Shown here: in pieces, positions 30,669-48,622 of the stretch
Position numbering within the stretch: the stretch's first letter is position 1
Layout: the number at the start of each line of letters is the position of its first letter
Assembly: GCA_000227505.4 (NCBI GenBank)
Contig: AGIF02000001.1
Coordinates: 1,322,035-1,386,034, forward strand
Length of the DNA: 64,000 bases
Origin: a gamma proteobacterium HIMB55
GTDB taxonomy: Bacteria > Pseudomonadota > Gammaproteobacteria > Pseudomonadales > Halieaceae
Direction: 5' to 3'
Notes under the pieces: generated by a model
What the model saw: the letters and a program-made list of their open reading frames with translations, nothing else
Told to the model about the DNA's origin: nothing
The model's database searches: none
Position numbers and translations under genes: made by a program

Positions 30669-33167
30669 CTAGTCGAGCAACATTGTGTCGTTAACAAGGT
30701 CTGCACAAGATGCGATCGATCGTATCTCAGGCATCGTTGTTAATTTGATCTCCGATATGTCCAGCGTTATATCACCCTCTGTTGCTAGCACAAAGGCTGT
30801 ATTTACCTGCGCCAAATTTAGACCCGCCTCTTGGAAGCAGGCGACGGGTACTGCGCGCTTGGTCCACTCACCCACAGGAGCGTCGAGTAATACTTTGGTG
30901 AATCGCACAGCACCCGAGCAGGGATATTTGCAGTCCATGCGTAACGATACAGGTGACGTAGGCGGACTCTGAATCCTGAAGTCGATTGATAACGCGCCTC
31001 CCGCGTCATTAAGCGCCGTCAGATCGGTGGGGTACTCAGACTGCATGTAAACCTGCGAAAGCCGCCCTTCAGCACCTGTGAAGGTCAAGCGTCGAGCATC
31101 CTCTTGGACTAAACGATCAATTGCCTCGATGGTCACACTACCGGTTGACGATTGGGAACTGCTGGATGTTGCCTCGACCGCCCAATCACTCGAGTCTCCC
31201 GAGAAGAGTTTCCAGGAACCGCGAGGCCCACCATTGAACACTTCTTGATCGAGACTGTTGTCCGCACCAATCAACACTTCGGATAGGTCACTCCAAGCAA
31301 ACGCATCGGTTACAGACAGCCCGTATCCAATTGGAAAAGCAAATGTATCAACGGGCAAGTCGCGATCGATAGCATTGACGTCTAGCGCTGGCCACGGCAT
31401 CGGTAACCTGCCTGTGAAATCGTGCTGGACGCCTCCGTCTGCGTCTTGCAGTAACACGTCCGCCACGCCCTGCCCTTCGCTACCCGGCAACCAAGAAACG
31501 ACAAACGCGTCACTCAAGTTCAGGATGTCGTTCACCCACATCGGACGGCCCGTAAGGAAAACCGCAACGACAGGAATGCCACGTTCTTTCAGAGCCTTCA
31601 TGCGTGACCGTTCAGCACGCTGGTCGTACCACGCCACCGAATACACATCACCCTGCATCTCAGCGTACGGTGTTTCACCGAAGACGAAGATCGCGGCGTC
31701 TACTTCTGCTGACTCATCAGTGGTGATGCTCCCGCCGGCCGCCTCAAGTTGCTGTTTGAGACCACCCAAAATAGATGTTGCTCCGGGGAAATCGGCGTTC
31801 GTATTACCCGTCCCTTGCCAGCTGATGGTCCACCCACCGCTCTGTTGTCCTATATCGTCGGCACCAGGACCGGTCACGAGGTAATGCTGATCGGCGGGAA
31901 GTGGTAGCAACCCCTGATTATTCTTCAAAAGAACCTGAGACTTCCTAACGGCTTCTCGGGCAATAGCTCTGTGGTCAGTGTGTCCAATTTGATCGCGATA
32001 CTCTGCGGCAAACTGAGAGGGCAAGCCACGCGTAAACAGACCTGCCTTGATCTTCATTACTAGGATTCGCGATACAGCCTCATCGATACGCGCTTCCGAA
32101 ATCTCACCCGCTGCGACCTGCTCTAGCATATTATTATAGAGCGACCTCCAATCAGCGGGCACCATCACCATATCGATGCCGGCATTGACTGCCTGGGCAC
32201 AGTTGTCGTTGGTGCATCCAAGAACCTCACCGACACCATTCCAATCGCTAACTACCATCCCTTCGAAACCCATATCCCCTCTGAGGAGATCAGTCAGAAT
32301 GGCTTTGCTACCGTGAATCTTGTCTCCATACCAACTATTAAAAGATGACATGACGCTCATGACATCTTTATCAATCGCTTCGACATAGCCCTGCCCGTGG
32401 ATGGCCACCAGTTCTTCTAGCGGTAAACTGGTTTCGCCGCGATCATCACCTCGCAACGTGCCACCGTCGCCGATGAAGTGCTTTGCGGTGGAGGCAATTC
32501 CCTCTGCTTGCATAGCATCCACGATAGGTGCAACAAAGCTTGCAGCGATTTGAGGATCCGAACTGAAGGATTCATACGTTCGACCCCAGCGCGCATCTTT
32601 TGCCACGGCCACTGTCGGCGCGAAGATCCAATCGATCCCCGTTGCTTTCACCTCACGAGCGGTGGCGCCGATGATTTGTGAGACCAATTTCGTATCGCGA
32701 GTGGCGCCGAGACCGATGTTGTGTGGGAATAGTGTCGCACCCATAACGTTGTTATGACCGTGAACGGCGTCCGTACCCCACACAATGGGGATTCCCGCAC
32801 CACCACTAGAGGTATCCATCGATGCTGTGTAATAAGCATCGGCAAGTGCTACCCAGTCTTCTACCGTGGCGTATTTATTCTCCTGTGGAAACGAGCCACC
32901 TCCGTTGAGCACACTTCCCAAACCGTAGACCCGAACATCCTCAGGGGTAACGTCGCGAATCTCTCCTTGAATCATTTGGCCGACTTTCTGCTCAATCGTC
33001 ATCTGCGCGGTTATGGCACTAGCGCATGACTTCGCTTCGTCCATCGAGAATGCTGTGGCGGCACAGCTCGAATCGACACTATTAGCAGTCGATGGCTTCT
33101 CAAGCTGGCATGCCGAGAGCAAAAGAATAAATGCGGAAGTAGAAATGGATAACCGTAAAAGTCGCAT
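30669..33167 (-). CDS. GH3 beta-glucosidase lipoprotein with C-terminal ExoP-like domain
   Basis: This 832-residue protein has a lipoprotein signal (lipobox LLSAC, Cys20), followed by a GH3 catalytic region that starts at TIEQKVGQMIQGEI. AVHGHNNVMGATLFPHNIG, AKHFIGDGGT and the nucleophile Asp in GMVVSDWNGVG are family hallmarks. The (alpha/beta)6 domain follows with SQVLLKNNQGLLPLP. The last 190 residues or so form a beta-sandwich with LRMDCKYPCSG, like the ExoP C-terminal galactose-binding module of marine exo-1,3/1,4-beta-glucanases. It likely trims beta-1,3/1,4-gluco-oligosaccharides. It is divergent from the TonB receptor and followed by the sugar symporter. Confidence 0.92.
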   Translation of the reverse strand: MRLLRLSISTSAFILLLSACQLEKPSTANSVDSSCAATAFSMDEAKSCASAITAQMTIEQKVGQMIQGEIRDVTPEDVRVYGLGSVLNGGGSFPQENKYATVEDWVALADAYYTASMDTSSGGAGIPIVWGTDAVHGHNNVMGATLFPHNIGLGATRDTKLVSQIIGATAREVKATGIDWIFAPTVAVAKDARWGRTYESFSSDPQIAASFVAPIVDAMQAEGIASTAKHFIGDGGTLRGDDRGETSLPLEELVAIHGQGYVEAIDKDVMSVMSSFNSWYGDKIHGSKAILTDLLRGDMGFEGMVVSDWNGVGEVLGCTNDNCAQAVNAGIDMVMVPADWRSLYNNMLEQVAAGEISEARIDEAVSRILVMKIKAGLFTRGLPSQFAAEYRDQIGHTDHRAIAREAVRKSQVLLKNNQGLLPLPADQHYLVTGPGADDIGQQSGGWTISWQGTGNTNADFPGATSILGGLKQQLEAAGGSITTDESAEVDAAIFVFGETPYAEMQGDVYSVAWYDQRAERSRMKALKERGIPVVAVFLTGRPMWVNDILNLSDAFVVSWLPGSEGQGVADVLLQDADGGVQHDFTGRLPMPWPALDVNAIDRDLPVDTFAFPIGYGLSVTDAFAWSDLSEVLIGADNSLDQEVFNGGPRGSWKLFSGDSSDWAVEATSSSSQSSTGSVTIEAIDRLVQEDARRLTFTGAEGRLSQVYMQSEYPTDLTALNDAGGALSIDFRIQSPPTSPVSLRMDCKYPCSGAVRFTKVLLDAPVGEWTKRAVPVACFQEAGLNLAQVNTAFVLATEGDITLDISEIKLTTMPEIRSIASCADLVNDTMLLD

Positions 33168-33584: not shown

Positions 33585-36536
33585 ATGGATCGTCACTTGT
33601 TTGCTAAAAAACGCGTATCGCTTGCTGTATCGGTTGCTCTAGGAGCAATGGCTACATCACCTGCAATGGCACAGGACAGTGAAAGCGCAAATGACCAGAT
33701 GATGGAAGAAGTCGTCGTCACGGGTATTCGCTCAAGCCTTAAGCGTGCGATGGACACAAAACGCGACGCGACGGGTGTCGTTGACGCAATCACTGCGGAA
33801 GACATCGGTGACTTCCCTGACACCAACCTCGCAGAAGCGCTTCAGCGTATTACCGGCGTTGCAATTGACCGTGACCGCGGTGAAGGCGCGCGGGTAACGG
33901 TTCGTGGCTTCGGTGCTGACTTTAACCTCGTAACGCTTAACGGTCGCCAGATGCCAACGCACAGCGGCTATGGACGATCTTTTGATTTTGGCGATATTGC
34001 GTCAGAGAGCGTTTCTGGCGTTGAGGTCTATAAAACAGCGCAAGCTAGCGTACCGACTGGCGGTATCGGCGCGACCATCAACGTTTTGACAGCGAAGCCT
34101 CTTGATAACCCCGGCTTCTCTGCCTCACTCGCCGCACGTGGTGTTAAAGACCAGAGTTCATTTACCGGTGACGAGTGGACGCCCGAAGCAGCCTTCTTGC
34201 TCTCCAACACGTTCATGGACGACACCGTAGGTATTGCTATCACGGGTAGCTTCCAAGAGCGCCAGTCAGGTCAAGCGTCTGCCTCTAACGGCAACTGGCT
34301 CGAGCGAGACGGCGGTGCAATTCCTGATAACGGCCAGCAGATCAACGGCCCTGTCGCCGGCAATATTGTAGGCCTCCCTCAGCAGCAAACTTATTCGCTC
34401 GACGAGTGGGATCGTGAGCGTACAAACGCACAAGTCACGTTGCAGTGGAGCCCCATCGAAACGCTGACAGCTACTTTGGACTACACCTACGCAGAATTGG
34501 ATTTGCGCCACACTGGCAACAGCATGTCGGTTTGGTTCAGCCCCACAGGTCAATCAGGTAACTGGATTAACGAGGAAGGCGTTGTAAGCCCTCTCGTATA
34601 CACCGAAACGAATAACCAGCCCGACCTATCCATGGGCGCATTCGTCGACGCTTCGATTAACGAGCGTAAGTCGACCGGCTTCAATTTGAAGTGGGACCCA
34701 ACCGACCGACTCAGTCTAGAACTTGACTACCACGACTCTGAAGCAACGCGTAATCCAAACAGCGTTTACGGCAGCTCTGCTCAGGTTGCGATGTCAATCT
34801 TCGGTAGAGAGCTTACGTCGGTGAACTACACCAACGAACTCCCTATCCTCACACTTGGTATGGCGGAGCCCATCTCACCAGACGATCTGCAAATTTCAGG
34901 TTCGGTGTTCGGCAACAGCTGGGCCGACATGAACATCGAACAGACTCAGTTCGACGGTAGTTTCGAATTGACTGACACGTTGATGTTGGACTTCGGTCTT
35001 GCGCAGACGGAAGTAGAGAACTACACAGCAGGTTCTAACGTTCAGCGTAACACTTGGGGTCAGAACCAAACCTCAGCCTTTGGTAGTGTTGCCGACTTAG
35101 TCGTACCTGCAACTCTTGAAGGCGTCTATTCCGAGCTTTCAGGCGGCGATCAGGTAAACAACAACTTCTTCATGGCGAACATGGCAGAGCTCGCGCAGCG
35201 CGCCGAGTACCTGCAAAGTCTGCCTGAGGATGATCCAATGCACCTCGCAACGGCAAGCACGCTGGGTGACTGTGGAACTGGGTTCTGCGCGAGCACAACA
35301 CCTGATAGTCAGGACTTTTTCGAGGAAGATACAATTGCTGCGTACTTCCAGTTGAACTTCACCGGTGAAATCTTCAATCGACCACTCAATGTTCGTGCCG
35401 GTATTCGCTACGAAGAGACAGAGGTCACGTCGAGCACTTTGTCGCAGGCCTACGAGCGTGTTGAATGGCGGTCTACCAACGAGTTCGAGATCATCCGTGC
35501 CGACAGTGCTACGCCCTCTTCGCTCGAAGGTGATTATGACTTCACACTGCCCTCGATCGACGTTGATATCGAGCTGACGGACGACCTTGTCTTCCGTGCA
35601 TCCGCTAGCCAATCAATCGCGCGTGCGGGCTTTGGTTCACTGGTTGGCACGTTGAACCTCCCAACAATCACTCGCGTCGACCAGGGCATACCTGGCCAGG
35701 CGATTGCGTCAGTGGGTAACCCAGGGCTGCTCCCTTACGAGTCAGACAACTTTGATTTGTCGCTTGAATACTACTACGGCGATGCCAGCTACATTTCTGC
35801 GGGTTACTTTGACAAGAAGGTGCGCAACTGGATTGGCGGAAGTGTTTTAGAGGATGTCATTCTGAACGATCAGTTGGCGAGCCCAGGTCTCGGTCCTTTG
35901 TATGCTGATGCAGCCGCAGCGATTCAGGCAGAAACCGGCGTCTACCCCGGTAACGCCGATATCCGTGACTACATTTTTGCAAACTTTGCGGATCAGCCCG
36001 GTGTTGACGCAGAAAACCAGGTGATTACAGGCGTTGTTGGCCGTGACGATGCGGTACCTTTCATCGTTAATACGCTCTCGAACAGTGATCGCGAAGAAGG
36101 TATCGATGGCTGGGAGCTCGCGTGGCAGCACAACTTCTGGGATACAGGCCTTGGCTTTATCGCGAACCTAACCATCGCTGATGGTTCTGCGGTCTATGAT
36201 AACGAGCAGTTAGGTAGTCAGTTCGCACTGGTCGGATTGTCCGATACGCGTAACTTCATCCTGTTCTACGACAAGTATGGTATTCAGGCTCGAATCGCCT
36301 ACAACTGGCGTGATGGCTACTACACGGGTGGTGACATCAAGCCCGGCTATCAGACTGAGTACGAGCAATGGGACGGCAACATCACTTATGAAGTGACGGA
36401 CGGGCTCGTTGTGTTTGTCGAGGGCATCAACCTGACGAACGAGACATTCCGCTCGCACGGCCGCAGCCAGTACCAGACTTACGGTGTTGGCCAGATTGGT
36501 ACACGCTACAACGTTGGATTCCGCTACAACTACTAA
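33585..36536 (+). CDS. TonB-dependent receptor of the glucan locus
   Basis: This outer-membrane receptor of about 983 residues has a signal peptide (cleavage near AMA-Q at residue 29). A TonB-box-like segment MEEVVVTGIRSSL follows, then the plug domain with DAITAEDIGDFPDTNLAEAL and VRGFGADFNLVTLNGRQMP. The barrel ends in YNVGFRYNY. The plug pattern matches the TonB-Xanthomonas-Caulobacter type commonly found with glycoside hydrolases. ATG at 33585 fits the signal peptide; the upstream frame to 33525 does not. Location between GH3 and GH16 genes suggests uptake of beta-glucan oligosaccharides. A terminator separates it from the halogenase genes. Confidence 0.93.
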   Translation: MDRHLFAKKRVSLAVSVALGAMATSPAMAQDSESANDQMMEEVVVTGIRSSLKRAMDTKRDATGVVDAITAEDIGDFPDTNLAEALQRITGVAIDRDRGEGARVTVRGFGADFNLVTLNGRQMPTHSGYGRSFDFGDIASESVSGVEVYKTAQASVPTGGIGATINVLTAKPLDNPGFSASLAARGVKDQSSFTGDEWTPEAAFLLSNTFMDDTVGIAITGSFQERQSGQASASNGNWLERDGGAIPDNGQQINGPVAGNIVGLPQQQTYSLDEWDRERTNAQVTLQWSPIETLTATLDYTYAELDLRHTGNSMSVWFSPTGQSGNWINEEGVVSPLVYTETNNQPDLSMGAFVDASINERKSTGFNLKWDPTDRLSLELDYHDSEATRNPNSVYGSSAQVAMSIFGRELTSVNYTNELPILTLGMAEPISPDDLQISGSVFGNSWADMNIEQTQFDGSFELTDTLMLDFGLAQTEVENYTAGSNVQRNTWGQNQTSAFGSVADLVVPATLEGVYSELSGGDQVNNNFFMANMAELAQRAEYLQSLPEDDPMHLATASTLGDCGTGFCASTTPDSQDFFEEDTIAAYFQLNFTGEIFNRPLNVRAGIRYEETEVTSSTLSQAYERVEWRSTNEFEIIRADSATPSSLEGDYDFTLPSIDVDIELTDDLVFRASASQSIARAGFGSLVGTLNLPTITRVDQGIPGQAIASVGNPGLLPYESDNFDLSLEYYYGDASYISAGYFDKKVRNWIGGSVLEDVILNDQLASPGLGPLYADAAAAIQAETGVYPGNADIRDYIFANFADQPGVDAENQVITGVVGRDDAVPFIVNTLSNSDREEGIDGWELAWQHNFWDTGLGFIANLTIADGSAVYDNEQLGSQFALVGLSDTRNFILFYDKYGIQARIAYNWRDGYYTGGDIKPGYQTEYEQWDGNITYEVTDGLVVFVEGINLTNETFRSHGRSQYQTYGVGQIGTRYNVGFRYNY

Positions 36537-36560: not shown

Positions 36561-36586
36561 AAAACCGCCCTACTGGGCGGTTTTTT
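36561..36586 (+). terminator. Terminator between TonB receptor and halogenase genes
   Basis: AAAACCGCCC pairs with GGGCGGTTTT (10 bp) around a TACT loop, followed by T6-G-T5. It should stop most receptor transcripts; leaky read-through or a weak downstream promoter would feed the halogenase cluster. Confidence 0.9.
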
Positions 36587-36643: not shown

Positions 36644-38212
36644 ATGGCTGATCAGCATATCCAAGACATCGTAATTGTGGGCGGCGGGACTGCCGGCTGG
36701 CTTACCGCGAACATCATTGCGGCTCGGTTCCGCCCCGAGCAGGGTTTAGGTGTTCGCGTTACCTTGGTCGAGTCCCCCAACGTCCCTACGATTGGTGTCG
36801 GTGAGGGAACGTGGCCGTCAATGCGAACAACGCTAAAGGATATCGGCATTTCAGAAGCCGATTTCATTCGCTCCTGTGACGCCTCATTCAAGCAAGGAAC
36901 GTGGTTCAAAGACTGGATCAGTAAGGGTGACCAGCCTTATTACCATCCTTTCTCTCTGCCAGAGGGGTTTGACACAGTGAACCTCGCAGAGCATTGGTTG
37001 GCTGGCGCAGCAGGGGAAATACCATTCGCTGAAGCTGTGACACCACAACATGCAGTGTGTGAGCTAGGCAAGGCACCGAAACAGATTGGCATCCCCAACT
37101 ACGCCTACACCGTTAACTACGGTTACCACCTCGACGCCGGTAAGTTTGCATCACTGCTCACGACAAATGCGACCAAAAAGCTGGGCGTTACGCACGTAAG
37201 CGCTGATGTGGTGTCCGTGACCAATGATCACGAAGGCTACATAACGAGCGTTATGACTGAACAAGCCGGCGAGATCCATGGCGATCTATTTATCGATTGC
37301 TCTGGCTTTCAAAGCCTATTGCTGGGTCAGCATTTCGGCGTAGAAAACGTTTCGATCGATCACTATTTGTTTAACAACGCGGCAGTCGCTCTTCAGGTGC
37401 CCTATGCGGAGGCAGATGCGCCTATTGCTACGACAACGCACTCCACCGCGCAGAAGAATGGGTGGATTTGGGATATCGGGCTTCAGCATCGACGCGGTAT
37501 CGGCCATGTCTTCTCAAAAGCATTCCAAACGCATGATCAAACCCTTCAGGTACTCGATGCATATCTCAAAGAAACGGGCCATATAGCAGGCCTAGACAAC
37601 CTAGCACCGCGCCTGCTCGAATTCGAGCCTGGTTACAAACGACATTTTTGGGTGAAGAATTGTCTCGGTATTGGACTGTCTGCGGGCTTTATAGAACCGC
37701 TTGAGGCTTCTGCCTTGGTCCTTGTCGAGCTGAGCGCAACCGCTCTGGCAAATCAGATGCCACGGCACCGTGGCGACATGGAAGTGATCTCAGGCCGGTT
37801 CAACCGCGAGTTTGCGAGCCGCTGGTCTCAAATCATCGACTTCTTAAAACTTCACTACGTGCTGTCAAAGCGCGACGATTCAGCGTATTGGCAGGAAAAT
37901 CGCGAGGTAGGCTCCATTCCTGATTCCCTCAAGGAAAACTTAGTCGTATGGGCAAATCGTCCGCCTTGGTATCATGACGACTTACGTCGCGACGAGATGT
38001 TTCCTGCTGCAAGCTATCAATACGTACTATACGGTATGGGCTTTGAGTCACAGCCGGCCTTCATGGCAACGCGATCCGGCGACCGACAACGTGAGGTTGC
38101 ACAGCGATTATTCGCTGAAACACAGAAGAAAGCGGGCAAATATGGGCAATTTTTGCCTCCAAATCGCTTCTTGATGAATCAATTGCGTGAACAAGACTTT
38201 GCGCGAATCTAG
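36644..38212 (+). CDS. Flavin-dependent tryptophan-halogenase-family protein, variant motifs
   Basis: This is a 522-residue protein when started at the ATG at 36644. FAD-binding GGGTAGW is at residues 13-19. The lysine equivalent to catalytic Lys79 of PrnA is Lys83 (SFKQGTWF), and the active-site glutamate lies in SAGFIEPLEAS. Two signature motifs deviate: GEATIP reads GEGTWP (residues 53-58), and WxWxIP reads WIWDIG (274-279). It may therefore have a different substrate or a non-halogenating flavin reaction. No signal peptide is seen, so it is cytosolic. SapC follows after 9 bases, in a tight run with cupin and a second halogenase. Confidence 0.88.
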   Translation: MADQHIQDIVIVGGGTAGWLTANIIAARFRPEQGLGVRVTLVESPNVPTIGVGEGTWPSMRTTLKDIGISEADFIRSCDASFKQGTWFKDWISKGDQPYYHPFSLPEGFDTVNLAEHWLAGAAGEIPFAEAVTPQHAVCELGKAPKQIGIPNYAYTVNYGYHLDAGKFASLLTTNATKKLGVTHVSADVVSVTNDHEGYITSVMTEQAGEIHGDLFIDCSGFQSLLLGQHFGVENVSIDHYLFNNAAVALQVPYAEADAPIATTTHSTAQKNGWIWDIGLQHRRGIGHVFSKAFQTHDQTLQVLDAYLKETGHIAGLDNLAPRLLEFEPGYKRHFWVKNCLGIGLSAGFIEPLEASALVLVELSATALANQMPRHRGDMEVISGRFNREFASRWSQIIDFLKLHYVLSKRDDSAYWQENREVGSIPDSLKENLVVWANRPPWYHDDLRRDEMFPAASYQYVLYGMGFESQPAFMATRSGDRQREVAQRLFAETQKKAGKYGQFLPPNRFLMNQLREQDFARI

Positions 38213-38221
38213 GTAAGTGCC

Positions 38222-38938
38222 GTGGGAAATATTCAGAAGTTAAACAACGTCGAGCACGCTCAACTTAAGATCAAGCAATCCCCTTGCGAAGCGGATCGCG
38301 TGATGTTCTCGCCCGTTTACACCAGTGAAATGCGTGCCTTACAAAGTAACTTTCCACTGATGTTTTACAAATCACCGAGCGATGGCAGCTTCACGCCGAT
38401 CGCGCTATTCGGCTTCGAGCAAGGCGAGAACCTCTTTCTCACCGACGAGCGTTGGACAAGTCAGTACATCCCGATGCTCATCCAGCGCGGTCCACTGATG
38501 ATCGCGACAGACGGGCAAACCGACACAGGTGAGACTGCACGCGTTATTGCCATTGATATGGAGCATCCCAACGTATCTCAGGACGAGGGTGAGCCCCTCT
38601 TCTTGGAGTTCGGCGGCAATACAGCCTATCTGGATCGACTTGCCACGATGCTCGAGGGCATCCACCAGGGTCACACACTGACTCCCCTGTTTGTTGAGGC
38701 GCTTAATGAGCACAATTTGATCACAGCGATCACGCTCAAGATCACGCTCAAAAATGGTCAGGATCATGCACTAGAGGGTTTTTACGCCATAGATGACGAG
38801 AAGCTGCAAACTCTCAATGAAGAGGCAGTGGCCGATCTTCACCGACGAGGCCACCTACTTCCCGCATTCATGATGGTTGCCTCGCAATCTCAGCTGAAGC
38901 GTTTGATCGAACTGAAAAACGCGACAGTCACGGCCTAG
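38222..38938 (+). CDS. SapC family protein
   Basis: This 238-residue protein has the SapC pattern: a conserved start region with FSPVYTSEMRALQSNFPLMF, then TPIALFGFEQGENLFL and LIQRGPLMIA. The family was named from the Campylobacter S-layer secretion locus, but in marine and plant-associated proteobacteria it travels with TonB receptors and tryptophan halogenases. No signal peptide or membrane segment is visible. Start is GTG at 38222, with AGGTAAG overlapping the halogenase stop region. Its molecular function is unknown; the fixed neighbourhood suggests a joint task with the flanking halogenases and cupin protein. Confidence 0.85.
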   Translation: MGNIQKLNNVEHAQLKIKQSPCEADRVMFSPVYTSEMRALQSNFPLMFYKSPSDGSFTPIALFGFEQGENLFLTDERWTSQYIPMLIQRGPLMIATDGQTDTGETARVIAIDMEHPNVSQDEGEPLFLEFGGNTAYLDRLATMLEGIHQGHTLTPLFVEALNEHNLITAITLKITLKNGQDHALEGFYAIDDEKLQTLNEEAVADLHRRGHLLPAFMMVASQSQLKRLIELKNATVTA

Positions 38939-38948
38939 GTGACTAACA

Positions 38949-39965
38949 TTGCTTGAGCGCGCTACTGCCATTAGAGAAGTTCAGCTGGAGCCTGGTATAG
39001 CACCGCCCTCTGAACTACTCCTGTCGGACGCACCATGGATTGCGCGTGGCTACGTATCGGACTGGCCATTGGTCAAAGCCTCACAGGACAGCGCTCAGAG
39101 CGCGCTCAGCTACTTAGCTGAGTTTTATCAGGGACGCCCTGTAAATGCTTTCCTAGCGGAACCCGAGTCAAATGGGCGCTTCTTCTACAACGACGAGGTG
39201 ACTGGCTTTAATTTCGTGCAAGTCAGCACGCAATTGTCTCAGGTTTTCGACAAGCTGCTCGCTTTTTCGCAGAGCGATCAAAAAGCACCCTCACTCTACG
39301 TGGGGAGCACACAAACAAGCGCTTGGTTGCCCGGCTTTAATGAAGCGAATGCCCTGCCTTTTGAACTCCCCAGTCCAATGACCAGTCTTTGGGTTGGAAA
39401 TGAATCCCGGGTTGCGGCGCACTTTGACTTCCCACGCAATATCGCCTGCTGCGTCATCGGGGAGCGACGCTTCACAGTATTCCCGCCCGAGCAGGTCGAG
39501 AATCTGTATGTGGGACCGTGGGACCTCACGCCTGCAGGCCAACCCATCAGCATGGTGGACTTCCATAATATTGATTACGGGAAATACCCCAAATTCAAAC
39601 AGGCGGAAAATCATGCGCAAACTGCGACTTTACAACCTGGAGACGTGATTTACCTACCCAATATGTGGTGGCACCAGGTGGAGGCGTTAAGCGCCGTCAA
39701 CGGGCTGGTCAACTTTTGGTGGCAGGAAACCCCTGGGGTCTACGGATCGCCCACTGAAGCCCTTAAACATGCATTTTTGAGCATACGTTCGTTACCATTG
39801 CACCAACGTCAGGCACTTAAAGCGATGTTTGATCACTATGTGTTTGCCGAAACCAACGAACACCTGGAGCACTTACCGGAAGCAAGTTGGGGACGGCTTG
39901 GAGAAGTTACAGACCCACTCGCACGACAACTTCGTGCAGAGCTCACTAATTCCTTGAAACGGTAG
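38949..39965 (+). CDS. Cupin_8/JmjC-like 2-oxoglutarate-Fe(II) oxygenase-type protein
   Basis: This 338-residue protein is of the cupin-like (JmjC, FIH-type) fold. The facial-triad segment is AAHFDFPRNIACCV (HxD), and the distal His is in PNMWWHQVEAL, in a typical GDVIYLPNMWWH strand. LVSDWPLV-like text at residues 25-40 (ARGYVSDWPLVKA) is standard at the N-terminus of this family. Such proteins hydroxylate proteins or small molecules using oxygen, Fe(II) and 2-oxoglutarate. It starts at TTG 38949, ten bases after sapC, and ends seven bases before halogenase 2, so all four are translated from one message. Confidence 0.85.
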   Translation: MLERATAIREVQLEPGIAPPSELLLSDAPWIARGYVSDWPLVKASQDSAQSALSYLAEFYQGRPVNAFLAEPESNGRFFYNDEVTGFNFVQVSTQLSQVFDKLLAFSQSDQKAPSLYVGSTQTSAWLPGFNEANALPFELPSPMTSLWVGNESRVAAHFDFPRNIACCVIGERRFTVFPPEQVENLYVGPWDLTPAGQPISMVDFHNIDYGKYPKFKQAENHAQTATLQPGDVIYLPNMWWHQVEALSAVNGLVNFWWQETPGVYGSPTEALKHAFLSIRSLPLHQRQALKAMFDHYVFAETNEHLEHLPEASWGRLGEVTDPLARQLRAELTNSLKR

Positions 39966-39972
39966 CCCACTG

Positions 39973-41463
39973 ATGAATCAGCGCACTGTAGAAAAAGTAG
40001 TTATTGCCGGTGGTGGTACTGCAGGCTGGATGGCGGCCGCTGCACTTTCACGACTGGTTGGCCGCAAAATCAGCGTAACCCTCGTGGAATCTGAGGAAAT
40101 TGGTACGGTGGGTGTTGGCGAAGCAACAATCCCTACGATCTTAACAATCAACCGTCTTCTACAAATTCCAGAACCTGATTTCATCAAACTAACGAGTGGC
40201 ACTTTCAAGTTAGGAATCCGATTCGAGAACTGGCAAAAGCAAGGCGAGGACTACATCCACTCCTTTGGCGATACAGGCAAAGGAAGCTGGGCTGCAGGGT
40301 TCCACCACTTCTGGCTTCGCGCAAAAGAGATGGGACTGGCTGAAGACTACGGCGAGTACTGTACTGAACTCAAAGCGGCTGAAGCCGAGCGCTTCGCCAT
40401 TACTAGCCAAAACAAGCTGAATTACGCCTACCACCTCGATGCGAGTAAGTACGGCATGTACCTCAGAAAGCTCGCCGAGTCCTCGGGAGCTACCCGAATA
40501 GAAGGCAAAATACAACGTGTTGAAACCTCATCTGAGGACGGATTCATTGAGGCACTGCACCTGGAGGATGGGCAGCGTATTGAAGGCGACCTATTTATCG
40601 ACTGCACAGGATTCAGAGCCTTATTGAGCGAGGGTGCACTTCAAACAGGGTTTGATGATTGGAGTCACTGGCTACCTGCCAATCGCGCTTGGGCTGTTCA
40701 AAGCGAATTGAATGAGCATCCTAAGCCTTATACCCGCGCGATAGCACATAAAGTGGGGTGGCAGTGGCGGATACCTTTGCAGCATCGTGCTGGTAACGGT
40801 CTTGTTTACAGCAATGACTTTATGGATGAGGAGACGGCCCGTGACCTACTTCTCGCCAATGTGCCAGATAAACCGCTCACCGACCCGCGCCCGATCAAGT
40901 TTGTGACGGGGCAGCGCAAGCAGTATTGGAATAAGAACTGCATTGCCATTGGCCTCTCAAGTGGTTTCATTGAGCCACTGGAATCGACGAGCATCCACTT
41001 TATACAGAACGGTATTATGTGGTTGCTTCTGATGTTCCCGGATACCTGTATCGAGCCCAGCACCGTCAACGAATACAACCGCACCATGCGCTCAGAAGCT
41101 GAGCATATTCGTGATTTTATCGTTCTCCACTACACCCTTAATCAACGTTATGGCGACCCATTCTGGGATCACTGTAGAAACATGGATCTGCCTGACTCGC
41201 TCAAACACCGCATGGAACTCTTTGAACGTTCGGCGCGCGTATTCAAACCCCAAGACGATGTGTTTGCAGAGAACTCATGGGTTCAAGTGATGATGGGGCA
41301 AGGGATGTATCCTGAGGGCTATCACAACATCGCTCAAGCGATGTCAGAGAGCCAGATGACTGCGTTTTTAAAGGGCATACAGCACGAAGTAGCCCAGACT
41401 GTGGCCAAGCTCCCAGAGCATGGCGCGTTCGTCAAAACGCTCGTCCAGCACGCGAAGGTTTAG
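39973..41463 (+). CDS. Flavin-dependent tryptophan halogenase, canonical motifs
   Basis: This 496-residue protein has all family signatures: FAD-binding GGGTAGW (residues 13-19), GEATIP (50-54 region), catalytic Lys79 in GTFKLGIRF, WQWRIP (263-268), and the active-site glutamate in SSGFIEPLEST. The chemistry known for this family is FADH2- and oxygen-dependent halogenation of tryptophan or an indole-bearing partner through a hypohalous acid/lysine chloramine. Reduced flavin must come from a separate reductase. No natural-product synthesis genes surround it, so its substrate is unlikely to be a classic antibiotic precursor. The stop overlaps the convergent repeat-protein gene by 4 bases. Confidence 0.9.
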   Translation: MNQRTVEKVVIAGGGTAGWMAAAALSRLVGRKISVTLVESEEIGTVGVGEATIPTILTINRLLQIPEPDFIKLTSGTFKLGIRFENWQKQGEDYIHSFGDTGKGSWAAGFHHFWLRAKEMGLAEDYGEYCTELKAAEAERFAITSQNKLNYAYHLDASKYGMYLRKLAESSGATRIEGKIQRVETSSEDGFIEALHLEDGQRIEGDLFIDCTGFRALLSEGALQTGFDDWSHWLPANRAWAVQSELNEHPKPYTRAIAHKVGWQWRIPLQHRAGNGLVYSNDFMDEETARDLLLANVPDKPLTDPRPIKFVTGQRKQYWNKNCIAIGLSSGFIEPLESTSIHFIQNGIMWLLLMFPDTCIEPSTVNEYNRTMRSEAEHIRDFIVLHYTLNQRYGDPFWDHCRNMDLPDSLKHRMELFERSARVFKPQDDVFAENSWVQVMMGQGMYPEGYHNIAQAMSESQMTAFLKGIQHEVAQTVAKLPEHGAFVKTLVQHAKV

Positions 41464-44400
41464 GGCTTCATCTCTTTTTGGAAAGGGACTAGGTCGTCTG
41501 GTGGGTTTGGCTGATAAGGTTTCACGGACTCAATTGCTGCCCAAATTAGCACTTTACTCAAAGGTCGAACCGGCTCATCGCCCGCATCGAGCGGATCCGA
41601 GCCTACGTCAATCTCCTCTGCGTCGGTGAACCCATCATTGTCATCGTCTTGATCCTGATTGTCTCCGAGACCATCCCTATCGGTATCTATTGTCTCCGAC
41701 GGATCTGAAGGGAATTGATCCGCCTCGTCGCCGACTCCATCGCCGTCAGTATCCATTGTCTCTGTTGGATCGTTTGGAAACTGATCGGCGTTGTCGCCTA
41801 CGCCGTCACCATCGGTATCGATCGTTTCAGCCCCATCATTGGGGAAAGCATCGCCATTATCGCCAACCCCATCGCCATCGCTGTCGGTGCTCTCGGAGGG
41901 ATCTAGAGGAAATGCGTCGGCATTGTCACCCGTGCCATCACCGTCGCTGTCACGTGATTCATTCGGGTCTAACGGAAACGCATCATCATTGTCACCCACA
42001 CCATCACCGTCCGAATCTCTGTCTTCTAGCGGGTCATCTGGGAATTCATCCGTGTTATCACCAACACCATCACCATCGGAGTCAAGTGTCTCGCTGGGAT
42101 CAAGAGGGAATGCATCTGCATTATCTCCAACACCATCACCATCGGAGTCGTAGGCCTCGCTGGCATCCCCGGGGAATTCATCGGTGTTATCCCCAACACC
42201 GTCTCCGTCTGTATCGGCTGTCTCATTGGGATCCTCAGGAAATGCATCAGCATTATCACCCACACCATCACCATCAGAATCCGCCGATTCCTCTGGGTCT
42301 AACGGATATAAATCGCCGTTATCACCGACCCCATCCCCATCAGTATCCTGGGTTTCATTGGCATCGAGTGGGAACGCGTCAGCATTGTCTCCAACTCCGT
42401 CGCCATCAGAATCAAAGGCTTCGGTAGGATCGTCCGGGTAGAGATCTGAGTTATCACCAACCCCATCGCCATCGGTGTCAGTGGTTTCACTAGCATCAAA
42501 GGGGAAAGCATCCGCATTGTCCCCAACGCCATCTCCATCCGAATCCGCTGACTCGCCGGGATTGGTTGGGTAAAGGTCAGAGTTATCACCCACGCCATCA
42601 CCGTCAGTGTCTTGAGACTCCGTCGCGTCTAGTGGGAAAGCATCCGAATTGTCTCCCACACCATCACCATCAGTGTCAGTGACCTCACTCGGATCCAGAG
42701 GGAACGCATCAGTATTATCACCAACACCGTCACCATCGCTATCAGCTGACTCACTGGGGTCGAGCGGGAATAGATCGTCAACATCGGGCACACCATCGTT
42801 GTCGTCGTCGAGATCCTCTGAAAAACCGGTATCCACGCAACCAGGGGTACACTCGTTGGGTAGTCCATCTTGATCGGTATCTTCGAGTACAGTGAGATCA
42901 AACTGGGCAATACGAGTCAAGCCGTGCCCATCATCCACCCACAAACTAAGATCTTCAAAAACACCCACATCCTCTGCGCTTGGTGCACCAGAGAGGCTGC
43001 GTTCGAGCGGATCAAAGCTCAACCATGCTGGTAAATTCGTTGCGGAGAAGGTAAGCGAGTAGAACTCTGAATCCAGTTCGAAGGTATAAGCATAAGGTAT
43101 GTTTTCAACGGCAACTGTCTGGGGTGAAGCACTCGGCAAGTACACATCTTTAATGACGTTAAAGCCAACGACCTCGCCAGAATTCAAGCCCGCGACATCA
43201 CTATTGGGTGAGCCTGCGACGAGGATGCGGGCATCTTCGGACAACCCGACAGACCACCCAAGGTAGTCCCCAGCATTGCCAGATATCGGCGATCCACTCC
43301 TGACCCATTGACTATTTTCGTATGAAAAAAAAGCAACCTCGCCAGATCGGTCTCCATTACTGCTACTGAGCTGCGCACCGATTGCGACGCGATATCCATC
43401 GCCCGATAGCGCGAGCGAGGAACCAAAATTATCACCTGCTTGTCGACCGTCTAAATCATTGCCCAGCTGACGCCAGACGAATCCGTCATATTCGTATACG
43501 CGGACATGACCCGCGCTCTCACCACCACCACTATTAGACCTTGCACCAATAGCTACGACGTCACCATTTGCAGATAAGGATATTGATCGACCCGATCGAT
43601 CAAGTAATGCCTCGCCGTTGAGATCTGCGCCCTTTTGAACCCACGCATTATCGATGAGCTGAAATACCTTCACTTGCCCGGCAAGGGTATTGGTACCGTC
43701 ATCACCAATCGCACCTACGGCCAACGTCGATCCCTCGGCCGAGAGTGCAACACTCCATCCTGCGTAGTCACCCGCACTATCTCCGTAGATAACAGGCAGC
43801 TCGGTTAAGGACTCACCCTCTACCAGATAGCTATAAACCGCGCCCGCACTGGGTCCTGCTTCATCGTTGTAGGGTGCCCCTATAGCAATGACACGGCCAT
43901 CGCGGGAAATCGTTACGCTTGCACCAAAGTCATCACCGAGGCTCGCCCCAGTCACCGCACTCACCAGTAACTGCCAACCTGTATCGTCGAGCGTATAAAC
44001 AGAAGCAGCGCCTGCTCGCCCTTCAGAGTTTGATGCCTTTGGTGAGCCAACAACCATAGTCGAACCCGTTGCATCGATATCGAGCGATGATCCAAAACGC
44101 TCGAACAGACTCACCCCGTAGAGGGGCTCACCATAGGGCTTCCACTGTTTATCAAGCCACCTGTAGGCGCGCACAGAACCTCGATCTGAGCCTTGAGAAC
44201 TATCCCTGGGAGACCCCACAATCATTGTTTTTCCGTCTGCAGCGAGGGCAACTGTGCTCCCGAATTGTGCATTCGCTGAACTACCGGGCACATTGCTACC
44301 TAGCAAACTAGGCGGTGATCGATAGTCATCGAAGACATAGATATTTACTGTTTTAACGCTGCCATCGATAGTCAGCCGAAACAGGTCATCGCCTAGAAAT

Positions 44401-44936
44401 AAAGGGTCGGGGATGTAGGTGAGATTCTGGCCCAGTAAAACGGTGTCGATGTTTACGACTACCCCTGAATCATCGCGCAATTGGCCACGCTGTGGCGACT
44501 GAGAAAGCGAGACCTCTCCCCGGGTAATTTCATCGCTCCACGGCAGATAAATGGGAATTTGCTCAGACTGGATATCACTCTCAGAGTACATCCCGCTCAC
44601 GAAGAGATCGGATGCAGGCGCGAGATGGCTGATGAAGAATAACGACAAGGCCAAGGTTTGACGTATCGCCCGGCACGCGAAGCGTGATATTGCACGCAAA
44701 CAAAAACGTTGAAAGGAAGCGTCTAAGGACCGATAGCTCTCGACAAATCGCAGCGGCATGGTCGCCCACAGACTCTCGTTACTGCGCTGTGCGGACCTCC
44801 CTCTCGTGTGCACTTCTGCCATACGTAAGTTTGCGGCAGATTCTCGACATTTATTAGTAAAAACCCCAGCATCGTGAAGAATCAGACGGCAATGTGACAG
44901 CATGCTATCAAAGGGCCAAAACCGCGTAGAAAACAC
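41460..44936 (-). CDS. Secreted seven-repeat beta-propeller / Ig-like / thrombospondin-3 repeat protein
   Basis: The open frame is up to 1158 residues long. A hydrophobic signal-like segment, RQTLALSLFFISHLAPAS, lies near residue 95, so the true start is probably a later Met (Met39 or Met60). Seven FG-GAP-like blades follow, each with an FGSSLALSGDG-type turn and an IGAP or VGSP strand, enough for a closed seven-bladed beta-propeller. Then comes an Ig-like putative-binding domain (ATNLPAWLSFDPLERSLSG). After that are 17 units of 22 residues with the DSDGDGVGDN calcium-binding core of thrombospondin type 3 repeats, plus a final shorter unit. No sorting signal or membrane anchor is seen at the C-terminus. 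It lies beside the GH16 gene in the same direction. Confidence 0.85.
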   Translation of the reverse strand: MFSTRFWPFDSMLSHCRLILHDAGVFTNKCRESAANLRMAEVHTRGRSAQRSNESLWATMPLRFVESYRSLDASFQRFCLRAISRFACRAIRQTLALSLFFISHLAPASDLFVSGMYSESDIQSEQIPIYLPWSDEITRGEVSLSQSPQRGQLRDDSGVVVNIDTVLLGQNLTYIPDPLFLGDDLFRLTIDGSVKTVNIYVFDDYRSPPSLLGSNVPGSSANAQFGSTVALAADGKTMIVGSPRDSSQGSDRGSVRAYRWLDKQWKPYGEPLYGVSLFERFGSSLDIDATGSTMVVGSPKASNSEGRAGAASVYTLDDTGWQLLVSAVTGASLGDDFGASVTISRDGRVIAIGAPYNDEAGPSAGAVYSYLVEGESLTELPVIYGDSAGDYAGWSVALSAEGSTLAVGAIGDDGTNTLAGQVKVFQLIDNAWVQKGADLNGEALLDRSGRSISLSANGDVVAIGARSNSGGGESAGHVRVYEYDGFVWRQLGNDLDGRQAGDNFGSSLALSGDGYRVAIGAQLSSSNGDRSGEVAFFSYENSQWVRSGSPISGNAGDYLGWSVGLSEDARILVAGSPNSDVAGLNSGEVVGFNVIKDVYLPSASPQTVAVENIPYAYTFELDSEFYSLTFSATNLPAWLSFDPLERSLSGAPSAEDVGVFEDLSLWVDDGHGLTRIAQFDLTVLEDTDQDGLPNECTPGCVDTGFSEDLDDDNDGVPDVDDLFPLDPSESADSDGDGVGDNTDAFPLDPSEVTDTDGDGVGDNSDAFPLDATESQDTDGDGVGDNSDLYPTNPGESADSDGDGVGDNADAFPFDASETTDTDGDGVGDNSDLYPDDPTEAFDSDGDGVGDNADAFPLDANETQDTDGDGVGDNGDLYPLDPEESADSDGDGVGDNADAFPEDPNETADTDGDGVGDNTDEFPGDASEAYDSDGDGVGDNADAFPLDPSETLDSDGDGVGDNTDEFPDDPLEDRDSDGDGVGDNDDAFPLDPNESRDSDGDGTGDNADAFPLDPSESTDSDGDGVGDNGDAFPNDGAETIDTDGDGVGDNADQFPNDPTETMDTDGDGVGDEADQFPSDPSETIDTDRDGLGDNQDQDDDNDGFTDAEEIDVGSDPLDAGDEPVRPLSKVLIWAAIESVKPYQPNPPDDLVPFQKEMKP
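41688..42809 (-). repeat. 17 tandem 66-base units encoding TSP3 calcium-binding repeats
   Basis: There are seventeen in-frame 22-codon units of the form D(S/T)DGDGVGDNxDxFPxDPxE. The unit at the 42809 end is degenerate (DDDNDGVPD), and the rest are close copies. Aspartate-rich DxDxDG loops bind calcium. The even unit length and near identity suggest expansion by slipped pairing or recombination, so copy number may vary between strains. Confidence 0.95.
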
Positions 44937-45115: not shown

Positions 45116-48100
45116 TTAGTAAACCGTGATAACCACGTTGCTAACAGATACAGCGACATCTTGCGTATTGAGGTACATCAAGAACGAGGAGAACGTGTTG
45201 TCGCCTTGCTCTGGCACTTCAATCTCATATGTCATCGGATCTGCGCCCGCAACCGTGACGGCATCGGTGTCGTATGCAGGATCTACATCCGGGTATGGAT
45301 TGAACTCAAAACGGAACCGCAGCTCAGCTGCACCACCCGAGGCGACCGCACCTGTGAAGGAAATCTTGGCACCATTAGGGAAGCTCAGAGGATAGAGATC
45401 GGTGTTCATGTTAGCGAAACCACCCCACGCCTCTGCACCGCTCGGGAAGGTGAATACACCGTCCGCCTGTGTCGTGCCACCGAACGCCTCGGTGAACTCC
45501 GCAGGATCTAGCTCAGTACCTTCAACCACTGGCTCACCCTTCACGGTGACGACCACGTCGGTGATGTTGACACCAACGTCCTGCGTATTTAGGTACATCA
45601 GGAACGATGAGAACGTGTTCTCGCCTTGCGATGGGACTTCAATCGTATATTCCATCGCCTCAGTGCCCGATACATTCACCGCCTCAGTATCGTAGGCAGG
45701 ATCTACGTCAGGGTAAGGATTGAATTCAAAGCGGAATCGAACGTCTGCCGCACCACCCTCAGGAACAGATCCCATAAAGGAGATTGTCGCACCGTAAGGG
45801 AAGCTCAGTGGGTAGAGATCCGCATTCATGTTCGCGAAACCACCCCAAGCCTCAGCTCCCGTAGGGAAGGTAAACACCTCATCAACGACAGTCGTACCAC
45901 CAAATGCCTCAGTGAATGACGCTGGATCGAGAACCGTATCGTTGCTTGGCTCCTCACACTCAGGCGCGTTAGCCACAACACTCACATTACTGACCTGTAC
46001 GCCTACATCCATCGTGTTCAAGTACATAAGGAACGACGAGAAGGTATTCTCACCCTGCGAGGGGATCTCGATGGTGTATGAGGTCAACTCAGTGCCAGAA
46101 ACATTGATCGCAGCTGTATCGTACGCAGGATCTACATCTGGGTAAGGATTGAACTCGAAACGGAACCTTACGTCAGCACTTCCACCGAGCGGAACCGCTG
46201 CATTAAAGGTGATCGTTCCACCGTGTGGGAATGACATGGGGTACATATCGGTATTTTCATTCGCAAATCCACCCCAAGGCTCGGATCCTGTTGGGAATGA
46301 GTAGATACCGCCTTCTTCAATGACCGCACCACCGAATGAACCGGTAATTGCCGCCGTGCCGTAAGGCGTTGGCTGAGGGCATAGATCGCCTGCCGCACCT
46401 GGATCATTCTCGTAGCGAACGTCGCGGATTTCGAAGAAGATGCCGCCCTGATCACCTGCAGGCCACATAACAATCGCTGCACGCACTGCGGAAAGATCCA
46501 GCGGCTCACCGGGACGGGGGTCCGTATAGTTTGCTGCGTTAGTCGACGCCAGCAAAGCCGCTACAGGTATCTCAAAAGAAGTCCAAACGTCAGCCTCGAC
46601 ACCAGTGAGGTCGAGAGACAAGTCACCCGTACCGTCTGGGTACTCGTTCTCCACCTTGTAGTTCAAGCCGCCATCGATAGTCTCTTGAGGCAGCTTGAGC
46701 TCGAAGCGTAAGAAGCCCGCATCCTCATAGAGCGATAGATCCACGCCAGGCTGATCAGCCTGAACGAACCAAACACCAAACTCATCACTCGAGGCGAAAT
46801 TAACAAGGAGGCTGTCACCCGTGTTGCTCCAAGTGACTTGGTTCGTGCCCGACTCATAATACGAAACGAATCCAGAATCAGTAGAGCTACCACCAATGCC
46901 GAGAGAGGACCAGAAGCCACCCTCTAGACCGATTTCGTCAAGAACAACCAAAGTCGAACCATCACCGGCCTGACGTGGGCCACTGATGCCGCACTCGCGA
47001 CGGTAGGGATGACCACACTTCAGCGACACGTTGTCGACCTTGAGCGACGCAGCGGCTGTAGGCTCTATAACAATCAGGTTTACAACCTGCTGAAGGTTCA
47101 ACGGCTGCTCGCCGGGATTCTCGACCAGATCACGAAGCGGAATGCTGTATGAGAACCACTCATCTTTTGGCAGATCCGCAACGGATAGAGACACCTGACC
47201 CAAGGCAGGATAGCCACTGTCCATTTTGATCAAAATATCGCTAAGCGGCGCAGTACCGGCAGCTTCGATGTACATATCGAAACGCAGTTCACCGGCACCG
47301 TAGTAACCGAACAGCTCGAAGGGTTCGCCATCAGCAGCATTAATAACCGCATTGCCGGCACCCGATGTCATGATGTTAATAACCGATCCGTCGTCGACAA
47401 CCGACATCGCACCATCGTTGTCCCAACCAGCAGCAGCCACGAGTTGACGCTCACCAGTGGGCCATGAAAGTGTTGCAGCGCCATCTGCAAAGAGCATTGT
47501 CTCTTCGATGTAAGGCTCAGCCTCGTCAGGCGTCTCCAGACCACGGTCGGCGTTTGAGTTACAGCCTGTCCCGTCGGCAAGGCCGTACGAGCACTCGTAA
47601 ACGCGAATGTAGTCGACTTCCATCGTAGAGCCATCGACGTCGGCTGGATTCACAAAACCAGGACCGTTACCGCCAACTGCAAGGTTCACAATCAAGTGGA
47701 AGTCTTGGTTAAACGGAGCAGCAGGATCGCTTGCAGCGGTGAAACCTGTGTCGTTACCGGCGAAGAAGTAGCTGTAGTAAGACTCAGCTTCGACCGTGCG
47801 CAGATGTACGCCATCTACGTACCACCGAAGGTACTTACCAGACCACTCCAACGCGTAGGTGTGCCAATCTGAAGCATCATCAACCTCTGCAGGCGCAGTA
47901 ACAATTTGGTTCAGAGGCCACTGGAAACCGTGGTGTGCTGCTAAGAAAACGCCCTGGTTTTCGGTGCCCGCGTTTACGACTTCCATGATGTCGATCTCAC
48001 CCGATGCCGCCCATGTTCCGTAGGGTGAACTAGTAGGCATCATCCAGATCGCTGACCAAAGGCCTTGACCCGCAGCGGCCTTTGCACGCATTTCAACGCG

Positions 48101-48490
48101 GCCGTATGTGAAGTCGAACTTACCAATAGAGCGCATGCGAGAAGAGGTGTAAGGCATACCGCCCATGGGCTCTTCTTTAGCAGTGATCACGAGTGACCCA
48201 TCTGCTACCGCTGCGTTGTCTTCGAGATAGAACTGGCGCTCTCCGTTACCCCAGCCTGGCTCAGGTAAGCCATAGTCAGTGCCGTCGCCTGTCTGGAACG
48301 TCCAGTTAGCAGCGTCTACGCCACTACCATTGAACTCATCAGCCCAAACTAGCGTCCACTCTTCCTGCTCTTCCAAGTAGAACGGCTCAGTCTCTGGTGA
48401 CGAAGCACCTCCCCCACCACAGGCGTTCAGTAGTGCTGCCGCTAAGCCAATCCCGATCAGACGGCCATGACGATGCAAACGATCAAACAT
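45116..48490 (-). CDS. GH16 endo-beta-1,3-glucanase (laminarinase) lipoprotein, multi-module
   Basis: This is a 1124-residue protein when started at ATG 48490. The lipoprotein signal ends in LLNAC (Cys24), followed by a glycine-rich linker. The GH16 domain (about residues 45-300) has WADEFNGSG, WGNGERQFY and the catalytic GEIDIMEV, with Glu165 (nucleophile), Asp167 and Glu170 (acid/base). This is the laminarinase-type motif with the beta-bulge. Two ExoP-like beta-sandwich modules follow. Then come three tandem modules of about 130 residues sharing WGGFAN, RFRFEFNPYPDVDPAYDT and NTFSSFLMYLN. The added modules are probably carbohydrate-binding. It would cut laminarin-like glucan at the cell surface. 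Promoter elements were not identified. Confidence 0.93.
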   Translation of the reverse strand: MFDRLHRHGRLIGIGLAAALLNACGGGGASSPETEPFYLEEQEEWTLVWADEFNGSGVDAANWTFQTGDGTDYGLPEPGWGNGERQFYLEDNAAVADGSLVITAKEEPMGGMPYTSSRMRSIGKFDFTYGRVEMRAKAAAGQGLWSAIWMMPTSSPYGTWAASGEIDIMEVVNAGTENQGVFLAAHHGFQWPLNQIVTAPAEVDDASDWHTYALEWSGKYLRWYVDGVHLRTVEAESYYSYFFAGNDTGFTAASDPAAPFNQDFHLIVNLAVGGNGPGFVNPADVDGSTMEVDYIRVYECSYGLADGTGCNSNADRGLETPDEAEPYIEETMLFADGAATLSWPTGERQLVAAAGWDNDGAMSVVDDGSVINIMTSGAGNAVINAADGEPFELFGYYGAGELRFDMYIEAAGTAPLSDILIKMDSGYPALGQVSLSVADLPKDEWFSYSIPLRDLVENPGEQPLNLQQVVNLIVIEPTAAASLKVDNVSLKCGHPYRRECGISGPRQAGDGSTLVVLDEIGLEGGFWSSLGIGGSSTDSGFVSYYESGTNQVTWSNTGDSLLVNFASSDEFGVWFVQADQPGVDLSLYEDAGFLRFELKLPQETIDGGLNYKVENEYPDGTGDLSLDLTGVEADVWTSFEIPVAALLASTNAANYTDPRPGEPLDLSAVRAAIVMWPAGDQGGIFFEIRDVRYENDPGAAGDLCPQPTPYGTAAITGSFGGAVIEEGGIYSFPTGSEPWGGFANENTDMYPMSFPHGGTITFNAAVPLGGSADVRFRFEFNPYPDVDPAYDTAAINVSGTELTSYTIEIPSQGENTFSSFLMYLNTMDVGVQVSNVSVVANAPECEEPSNDTVLDPASFTEAFGGTTVVDEVFTFPTGAEAWGGFANMNADLYPLSFPYGATISFMGSVPEGGAADVRFRFEFNPYPDVDPAYDTEAVNVSGTEAMEYTIEVPSQGENTFSSFLMYLNTQDVGVNITDVVVTVKGEPVVEGTELDPAEFTEAFGGTTQADGVFTFPSGAEAWGGFANMNTDLYPLSFPNGAKISFTGAVASGGAAELRFRFEFNPYPDVDPAYDTDAVTVAGADPMTYEIEVPEQGDNTFSSFLMYLNTQDVAVSVSNVVITVY
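45119..46360 (-). repeat. Three tandem ~390-base modules in the GH16 gene
   Basis: There are three in-frame copies of a module of about 130 codons, at about 45119-45508, 45539-45928 and 45965-46360. The two C-terminal copies are very similar at protein level, and the first has diverged most. Shared cores are EAFGGTT (copies 2-3), WGGFAN, RFRFEFNPYPDVDPAY and FSSFLMYLN. Confidence 0.9.
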
Positions 48491-48622
48491 GAGTAACCCC
48501 AATTCATTGAATATTTAGTTAGTTTTAGCAGTCTGCTTTATCCCACAACGACGCGGAACGCTTAATACAAACGCGACGATAGGGACTTGGGGCGAGACAA
48601 GTGGGAAAGGGCTTGTTTAGCC

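Follow-up and report, generated by a model that had tools for sequence, protein, structure and literature searches.

Many proteins are annotated as 'tryptophan halogenase' without a known substrate, and the question of what such enzymes act upon is raised by a locus of the gamma proteobacterium HIMB55 (Halieaceae), in which a TonB-dependent receptor of the TIGR01782 family is followed directly by four genes, encoding a flavin-dependent halogenase (HalA), a SapC protein, a Cupin_8 protein and another flavin-dependent halogenase (HalB). The locus lies in a stretch of 64,000 nucleotides (contig AGIF02000001.1, positions 1,322,035 to 1,386,034 of the forward strand), which was analysed as a whole and is called the window below; the genome containing it comprises 2.74 Mb in one contig. 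Comparison with related genomes establishes the four genes, here termed the cassette, as a real, conserved and widespread unit dedicated to a receptor clade, and its recurrence in numerous marine bacteria gives it the look of a system devoted to chemical modification. The best-supported reading, which we propose tentatively, is that the cassette modifies a receptor-linked protein or peptide. Neither a study of the unit nor a known product for it was found in the open-licence literature, a search range outside which most subscription papers fall.

Conservation of the receptor and the cassette

The cassette genes are separated by gaps of 9, 10 and 7 nt, in agreement with an earlier note on this DNA, and HalA begins 107 nt behind the receptor gene. 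A profile search of the genome found a single SapC and a single Cupin_8 gene, both in the cassette, and three matches to PF04820, two of them full-length and within the cassette and one weak (26 bits) and located elsewhere. Among the matches listed for the cupin, the closest named records belong to Halieaceae and Luminiphilus.

Co-occurrence was counted in samples of the family and the phylum, in both of which the counts ignore relatedness. PF04820 was matched in 74 of the 140 genomes of the family sample; after 21 genomes whose matches were all weak (E no better than 1.9e-19) were set aside, 53 with a strong halogenase remained, and SapC was present in 49. Both families occurred together in 42 genomes, SapC alone in 7, a halogenase alone in 11 and neither in 80. 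The phylum sample (299 genomes) contained 111 genomes with SapC, 55 with a halogenase (E 1e-50) and 50 with both. Searches of named genomes with the cupin profile gave at least 577 relatives, and at the best 80 of these loci, where the cupin is present by construction, all four cassette families were found in 69 cases, SapC in 74 and any halogenase in 76, with the exact order receptor-HalA-SapC-cupin-HalB at 59. The full set is carried by Shewanella, Colwellia, Alteromonas, Glaciecola, Paraglaciecola, SAR92, Porticoccaceae, Teredinibacter, Woeseiaceae and Massilia, and a set without HalA by Microbulbifer. The earlier note had held that halogenases, SapC and cupins of this kind tend to accompany TonB receptors in marine and plant-associated proteobacteria, and had proposed a survey of their co-occurrence; the survey rules out co-occurrence at chance level, the families being found together far above chance, in conserved order and with the receptor as their constant partner. 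As a separate observation, two receptor-cassette units stand in tandem in Teredinibacter waterburyi (locus L206), the second without HalA.

The role of the receptor is clearest in the genus Luminiphilus, where 30 of 57 genomes contain the receptor (E 1e-100 or better) and all 30 contain a halogenase; a halogenase without a receptor match was present in five genomes. GH3 was detected in 35 genomes of the genus, 31 of them with a halogenase, and GH16 (searched with a 333-residue piece) in 31, of which 28 had one. Thus, the cassette is accompanied more constantly by the receptor than by the glycosidases. Similarly, among 41 family loci (the window included, and all selected for SapC or a halogenase), a halogenase was found in 30 of the 30 with this receptor cluster. 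GH16 and GH3 genes are common among the flanks elsewhere, and the flanking genes vary between loci, so that the link to glucans is recurrent, not universal; the beta-glucan setting proposed in the earlier note is supported in part, with four GH3-containing Luminiphilus genomes lacking a halogenase. Across 60 dereplicated loci, protein distances of the receptor correlate with those of the cassette proteins (Mantel r from 0.50 for HalA to 0.72 for HalB, against a shuffled maximum of 0.17), as joint inheritance would give, relatedness being still contained in these figures.

Pairing with halogenases extends further into the TIGR01782 family. Of 115 receptors of this family listed for eight genomes, seven of which had been chosen for having halogenases, 110 were retrieved and 109 passed our filter and were examined. 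A halogenase gene stands directly behind 36 of these receptors and is lacking behind 71, while one is followed by a cupin only and one lies at a contig edge. The arrangements include HalB alone (8), two HalB genes (6), HalA-SapC (5), SapC-cupin-HalB (4) and the full set (4), besides others. On a FastTree tree of 119 receptors the halogenase label changes 13 times, with at least 11 changes forced by starred branches, compared to 37 changes in shuffles. Since it changed about ten times or more on the tree, halogenase pairing is a trait that recurs in several clades of receptors, one of which is distinguished by the four-gene set.

Proteins of the cassette

HalA and HalB both pass the flavin-dependent tryptophan halogenase profile PF04820 (cut-off 21 bits; scores in Table 1). 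In an alignment of 24 proteins, the glycine-rich flavin motif and the residues Lys83 and Glu354 (HalA numbering), which we take to be the catalytic Lys and Glu of flavin-dependent halogenases, are invariant. The WxWxIP motif is matched by HalB (WQWRIP), whereas HalA (WIWDIG) differs at the last residue. The closest PDB entries are 2PYX (540 bits), 9LTB (470 bits) and 9LU2 (433 bits) for HalA, and Xcc4156 (6Y1W), 9LUQ and BrvH (6frl) for HalB. At the halide site, as described for flavin-dependent halogenases (PMC5945002), the alignment places EAS in HalA and EST in HalB. According to the two reports, Xcc4156 and BrvH are active halogenases with an open site that do not accept free tryptophan, BrvH favours bromide, and a peptide substrate was proposed for them by the authors (PMC7336383; PMC5945002).

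The structural model of the cupin (predicted local distance difference test, pLDDT, 92) gave Foldseek matches with FIH (E 3e-20), JMJD5, JMJD7 and TYW5, and the residues H158, D160 and H242 of an HxD...H iron triad are invariant in 69 aligned rows. FIH, JMJD5, JMJD7 and TYW5 modify residues in proteins or tRNA, and the modelled fold points to hydroxylation of a macromolecule. By eye, the position of FIH Lys214 is presumably taken by Arg173 in the alignment with the cupin. A further putative oxygenase, DUF6445, stands beside the cassette in 12 of 103 flanks, at several loci behind HalB, and contains an HxD...H...R pattern resembling that of 2-oxoglutarate (2OG)- and Fe(II)-dependent oxygenases (e.g., L150, 12636-13346, and L163, 12596-13309).

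SapC was modelled by AlphaFold with a pLDDT of 94.5, and its fold looks unassigned because a Foldseek search yielded no PDB match (best E 0.18). Seven SapC loci without a halogenase were fetched from the family. Three of them (L070, 9145-20000; L075, 2-11395; L081, 1151-13782) combine SapC with TonB receptors and with genes for a TPR-2OG-oxygenase, a TPR-sulfotransferase, an aspartyl/asparaginyl-hydroxylase-like protein and a methyltransferase, the gene identities in L070 and some in L075 being assigned by clustering only; L079 looks like the same region broken by a contig end. In the remaining loci SapC adjoins a two-partner-secretion gene (L080), adjoins a rubrerythrin and an FAD enzyme (L103), or belongs to a type I secretion locus that also contains an ABC transporter, HlyD, two methyltransferases and a glycosyltransferase (L071, 6772-15955). 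The surroundings of SapC thus repeatedly combine genes for receptors or secretion with enzymes of a type that modifies such proteins. A gene fusion of SapC and cupin was considered and rejected, as the two pieces are joined only in L142, both truncated, probably through an assembly fault.

Genes for a peptide precursor or for a natural-product backbone were sought as well. Among 1413 small intergenic open reading frames (ORFs) of 18-110 aa, no conserved precursor-peptide ORF was found; the largest cluster comprises nine loci, all of close Halieaceae relatives, and lies in conserved upstream DNA that is open in several frames. None of the 18 window proteins scanned is a nonribosomal peptide synthetase, a polyketide synthase or another backbone enzyme, which bears out the statement of the earlier note that natural-product synthesis genes are absent, and no backbone gene occurs among the 25 families listed, of 84 in all, for the 103 flanks. 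Families of transporters or biosynthetic enzymes do not recur constantly in these flanks, the commonest two families being present in 12 each.

Possible function of the cassette

That the cassette modifies a receptor-linked protein or peptide is supported by the linkage in 30/30 receptor-containing genomes of the genus, the conserved order at 59/80 loci (the best 80 of at least 577), the Mantel correlations, the cupin fold, the relatives of HalB, the neighbours of SapC at three of the seven halogenase-free loci, DUF6445 and the negative search for a precursor ORF; taken together, these make it a possible reading, somewhat short of an even chance. In the cytoplasm, SapC would hold an exported protein or peptide, HalA and HalB would add halogen, probably bromine, to peptide-bound aromatic residues, in the first place Trp, and a nearby residue would be hydroxylated by the cupin. 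The product would be either the receptor or a partner at the surface, with its binding of ligand altered. The receptor segment WFSPTGQSGNW (Table 1) probably forms an extracellular loop, as judged only from the pattern of short turns and long loops, and is a first candidate target, no more. The second loop Trp is kept in most receptors with the full set and replaced by Phe in most receptors with SapC-cupin-HalB. A side observation concerns three Luminiphilus loci (L088, L091 and L092) that carry the unit without HalA, the receptors of which have Tyr at position 317, that of the first loop Trp; the three may represent one event. In a more specific and distinctly improbable version of the proposal, Trp317 and Trp327 of a glucan-binding extracellular loop would be halogenated before export while held by SapC, a neighbouring residue would be hydroxylated, and the cassette would belong to a wider SapC-linked set that swaps halogenation, sulfation and hydroxylation from receptor to receptor.

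Several observations weigh against modification of a receptor-linked protein. Enzymes of the cytoplasm would have to modify a protein of the outer membrane ahead of its export, an unusual requirement; no signal peptide is seen by eye in any of the four cassette proteins. The first loop Trp is often kept in halogenase-free receptors, and the Trp content is 1.37% in paired and 1.26% in unpaired receptors. In Fisher tests, 36 columns distinguished receptors paired with a halogenase from those without one, led by RGF versus RGL in the plug (30/46 versus 6/71), yet on 10 independent contrasts none of the 36 was significant (lowest median p 0.25), the lead column scoring 2.7 for and 0.1 against. With respect to HalA, second place among the residue types tried went to the Trp327 column (45/51 receptors with HalA versus 3/12 assigned as lacking it, one of which, L268, has HalA elsewhere); on five contrasts (61 versus 12 receptors) no column was significant, and Trp327 was not among the 25 listed. 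A residue signature of the receptor for halogenase or HalA was accordingly dropped. Among the top 20 SapC loci of the phylum sample by score, 17 have no adjacent halogenase, and none has a recognised receptor within about 1.5 kb. The neighbours of the 17, of which 41 of 48 were covered by the scan, are mixed: UDP-GlcNAc epimerase (3), SecA-like (2), formyltransferase (2), flagellin (1) and ShlB (1). Given such mixed neighbours in both family and phylum loci, SapC is not confined to receptors.

The terminator-like hairpin between the receptor and the cassette does not help the proposal either. In counts that omit receptors with identical first 60 nt, such a hairpin was found behind 88 of 119 cassette receptors, compared to 8 of 595 shuffles, and also behind 36 of 73 receptors without a cassette; within the same eight genomes the rates were 23/36 with and 36/71 without the cassette, with no significant difference (p 0.22). 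The idea of an attenuated operon was accordingly dropped. With an ordinary terminator ahead of it, the cassette needs read-through or a promoter of its own; across the window, terminator-like sites numbered 9 (8.8 expected) and promoter-like sites 3 (6.0 expected).

The chief rival, which we consider rather unlikely, is small-molecule tailoring, in which HalA and HalB would halogenate, and the cupin hydroxylate, a metabolite of indolic or phenolic nature, either imported by the receptor or released as a signal when the receptor is in use. BrvH does brominate free indole, but its activity is low and the authors doubt that indole is the natural substrate (PMC5945002). The enzymes look cytoplasmic, and linkage to an uptake receptor suits an imported ligand; the 103 flanks, however, contain no constant transporter or biosynthetic family, and SapC and the macromolecule-type hydroxylase would be left unexplained.

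The cassette might also do something other than halogenate, or have nothing to do with the receptor. That HalA and HalB serve in vivo as non-halogenase flavin enzymes, with a monooxygenase or redox role in glycan or receptor quality control, would fit the departure of HalA from WxWxIP (WxWDIG) and its EAS in place of the EST of HalB, in the meaning that we assume for these motif differences. The invariance of the presumed catalytic Lys and Glu in all 24 aligned proteins makes such a role unlikely. In HalB, moreover, WxWxIP is intact, and halogenase activity is established for its relatives BrvH and Xcc4156 (PMC7336383; PMC5945002). A cassette that merely rides with carbohydrate-uptake loci while performing an unrelated job, for example chemical defence, would account for the variable flanking genes and for a hairpin as ordinary as those behind other receptors. 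It is nevertheless improbable in view of the halogenase accompanying the receptor in every one of the 30 genomes of the genus, when GH3 and GH16 occur without one in 4/35 and 3/31, and of the different halogenase subsets paired with distinct clades of the receptor family.

Protein or peptide modification, as already suggested in the earlier note, is therefore kept as the preferred reading: it has gained from the co-occurrence, the lack of backbone or precursor genes in the sets searched and the FIH-like fold of the cupin. The receptor or a glucanase as its substrate has not gained likewise, given that no residue of the receptor follows halogenase or HalA presence significantly and the results do not point to the glucanases in particular.

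In this work, one large group of 'tryptophan halogenases' is tied to a TIGR01782 receptor with SapC, an FIH-like cupin and, at times, DUF6445, and cultured hosts of the unit are named in which the substrate can be sought, for example Shewanella kaireitica DSM 17170 (L150) and Alteromonas sediminis U0105 (L191), both with the five-gene unit. New here are the FIH/JMJD5-like fold of the cupin, the SapC fold without a PDB match, the other receptor contexts of SapC and the negative precursor search. If the target is a protein, the cassette would give ocean bacteria with uptake of algal glucans a regular post-translational modification that is new; if Trp317 and Trp327 are indeed modified, the receptor would carry halotryptophan as a regular modification.

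Layout of the locus

The features of the locus are collected in Table 1. The cassette lies behind the TonB receptor and between GH3 and GH16 genes, as the earlier note described, with one more gene intervening. The GH3 and GH16 genes are on the strand opposite to the cassette, and a symporter gene adjoins GH3; a TIGR01782 receptor together with two GH3 and one GH16 genes places the region among carbohydrate loci. Receptor queries began at codon 3 (33591).

Table 1. Coordinates of the receptor, the cassette and associated features in the window
Feature	Coordinates	Strand	Evidence
TonB-dependent receptor, TIGR01782 family, signal-peptide-like N-terminus (by eye)	33585..36536	+	TIGR01782 606 bits; Plug and barrel Pfam; ATG at 33585
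Receptor segment WFSPTGQSGNW, Trp317 and Trp327 (from ATG 33585), probable extracellular loop	34533..34565	+	Translation, receptor alignments
Terminator-like hairpin and T-run between receptor and cassette	36561..36584	+	10 pairs, 6 GC
HalA, flavin-dependent halogenase, 2PYX/9LTB/9LU2 type, WxWDIG motif	36644..38212	+	PF04820 402 bits; PDB 2pyx 540 bits
SapC (PF07277), GTG start	38222..38938	+	215 bits, cut-off 28.9
Cupin_8 / JmjC-like 2OG-Fe(II) oxygenase, FIH/JMJD5/TYW5 fold, TTG start	38949..39965	+	PF13621 228 bits
HalB, flavin-dependent halogenase, Xcc4156/BrvH type, WQWRIP motif	39973..41463	+	PF04820 629 bits; PDB 6y1w 609 bits, 6frl 446 bits
GH3 exo-beta-glucosidase-like gene	30669..33167	-	PF00933, PF01915, Exop_C
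GH16 glucanase-like gene	45116..48502	-	PF00722

The intervening gene (41460-44936, minus strand) separates HalB from GH16 and encodes a protein of 1158 aa with FG-GAP, Ig-like and thrombospondin type-3 (TSP3) repeats; its stop overlaps that of HalB by 4 nt, and members of its cluster occur in only 2 of the 41 family loci. A LytTR response regulator and histidine kinase pair (48623-50559, minus strand) adjoins GH16, each of the two clusters being present in 15 of the 41 loci, and is a possible sensor of glucan.

Comparison with known systems

HalB is close in sequence to BrvH (446 bits) and Xcc4156 (609 bits) and shares their motifs; their natural substrates are unknown, with a peptide proposed by the authors (PMC7336383; PMC5945002). 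The difference is that HalB stands in a unit together with a receptor, SapC, a cupin and another, divergent halogenase; a word search for 'TonB' in PMC7336383 and PMC5945002 gave no hit. Halogenases of the MibH type, which act on ribosomally synthesized and post-translationally modified peptides (PMC5945002), resemble the cassette in that it, too, would halogenate peptide-bound Trp, and differ in that HalB matches MibH (5uao) with only 178 bits and no conserved precursor ORF was found near the cassette. The cupin has the fold and the HxD...H triad of the JmjC protein hydroxylases FIH and JMJD5; unlike them it is bacterial, at 19-23% identity. Finally, the receptor beside GH3 and GH16 genes and a symporter resembles carbohydrate utilisation loci of the CUT or polysaccharide utilisation locus (PUL) type, whereas the constant partner of the receptor here is a modification cassette and not the glycosidases.

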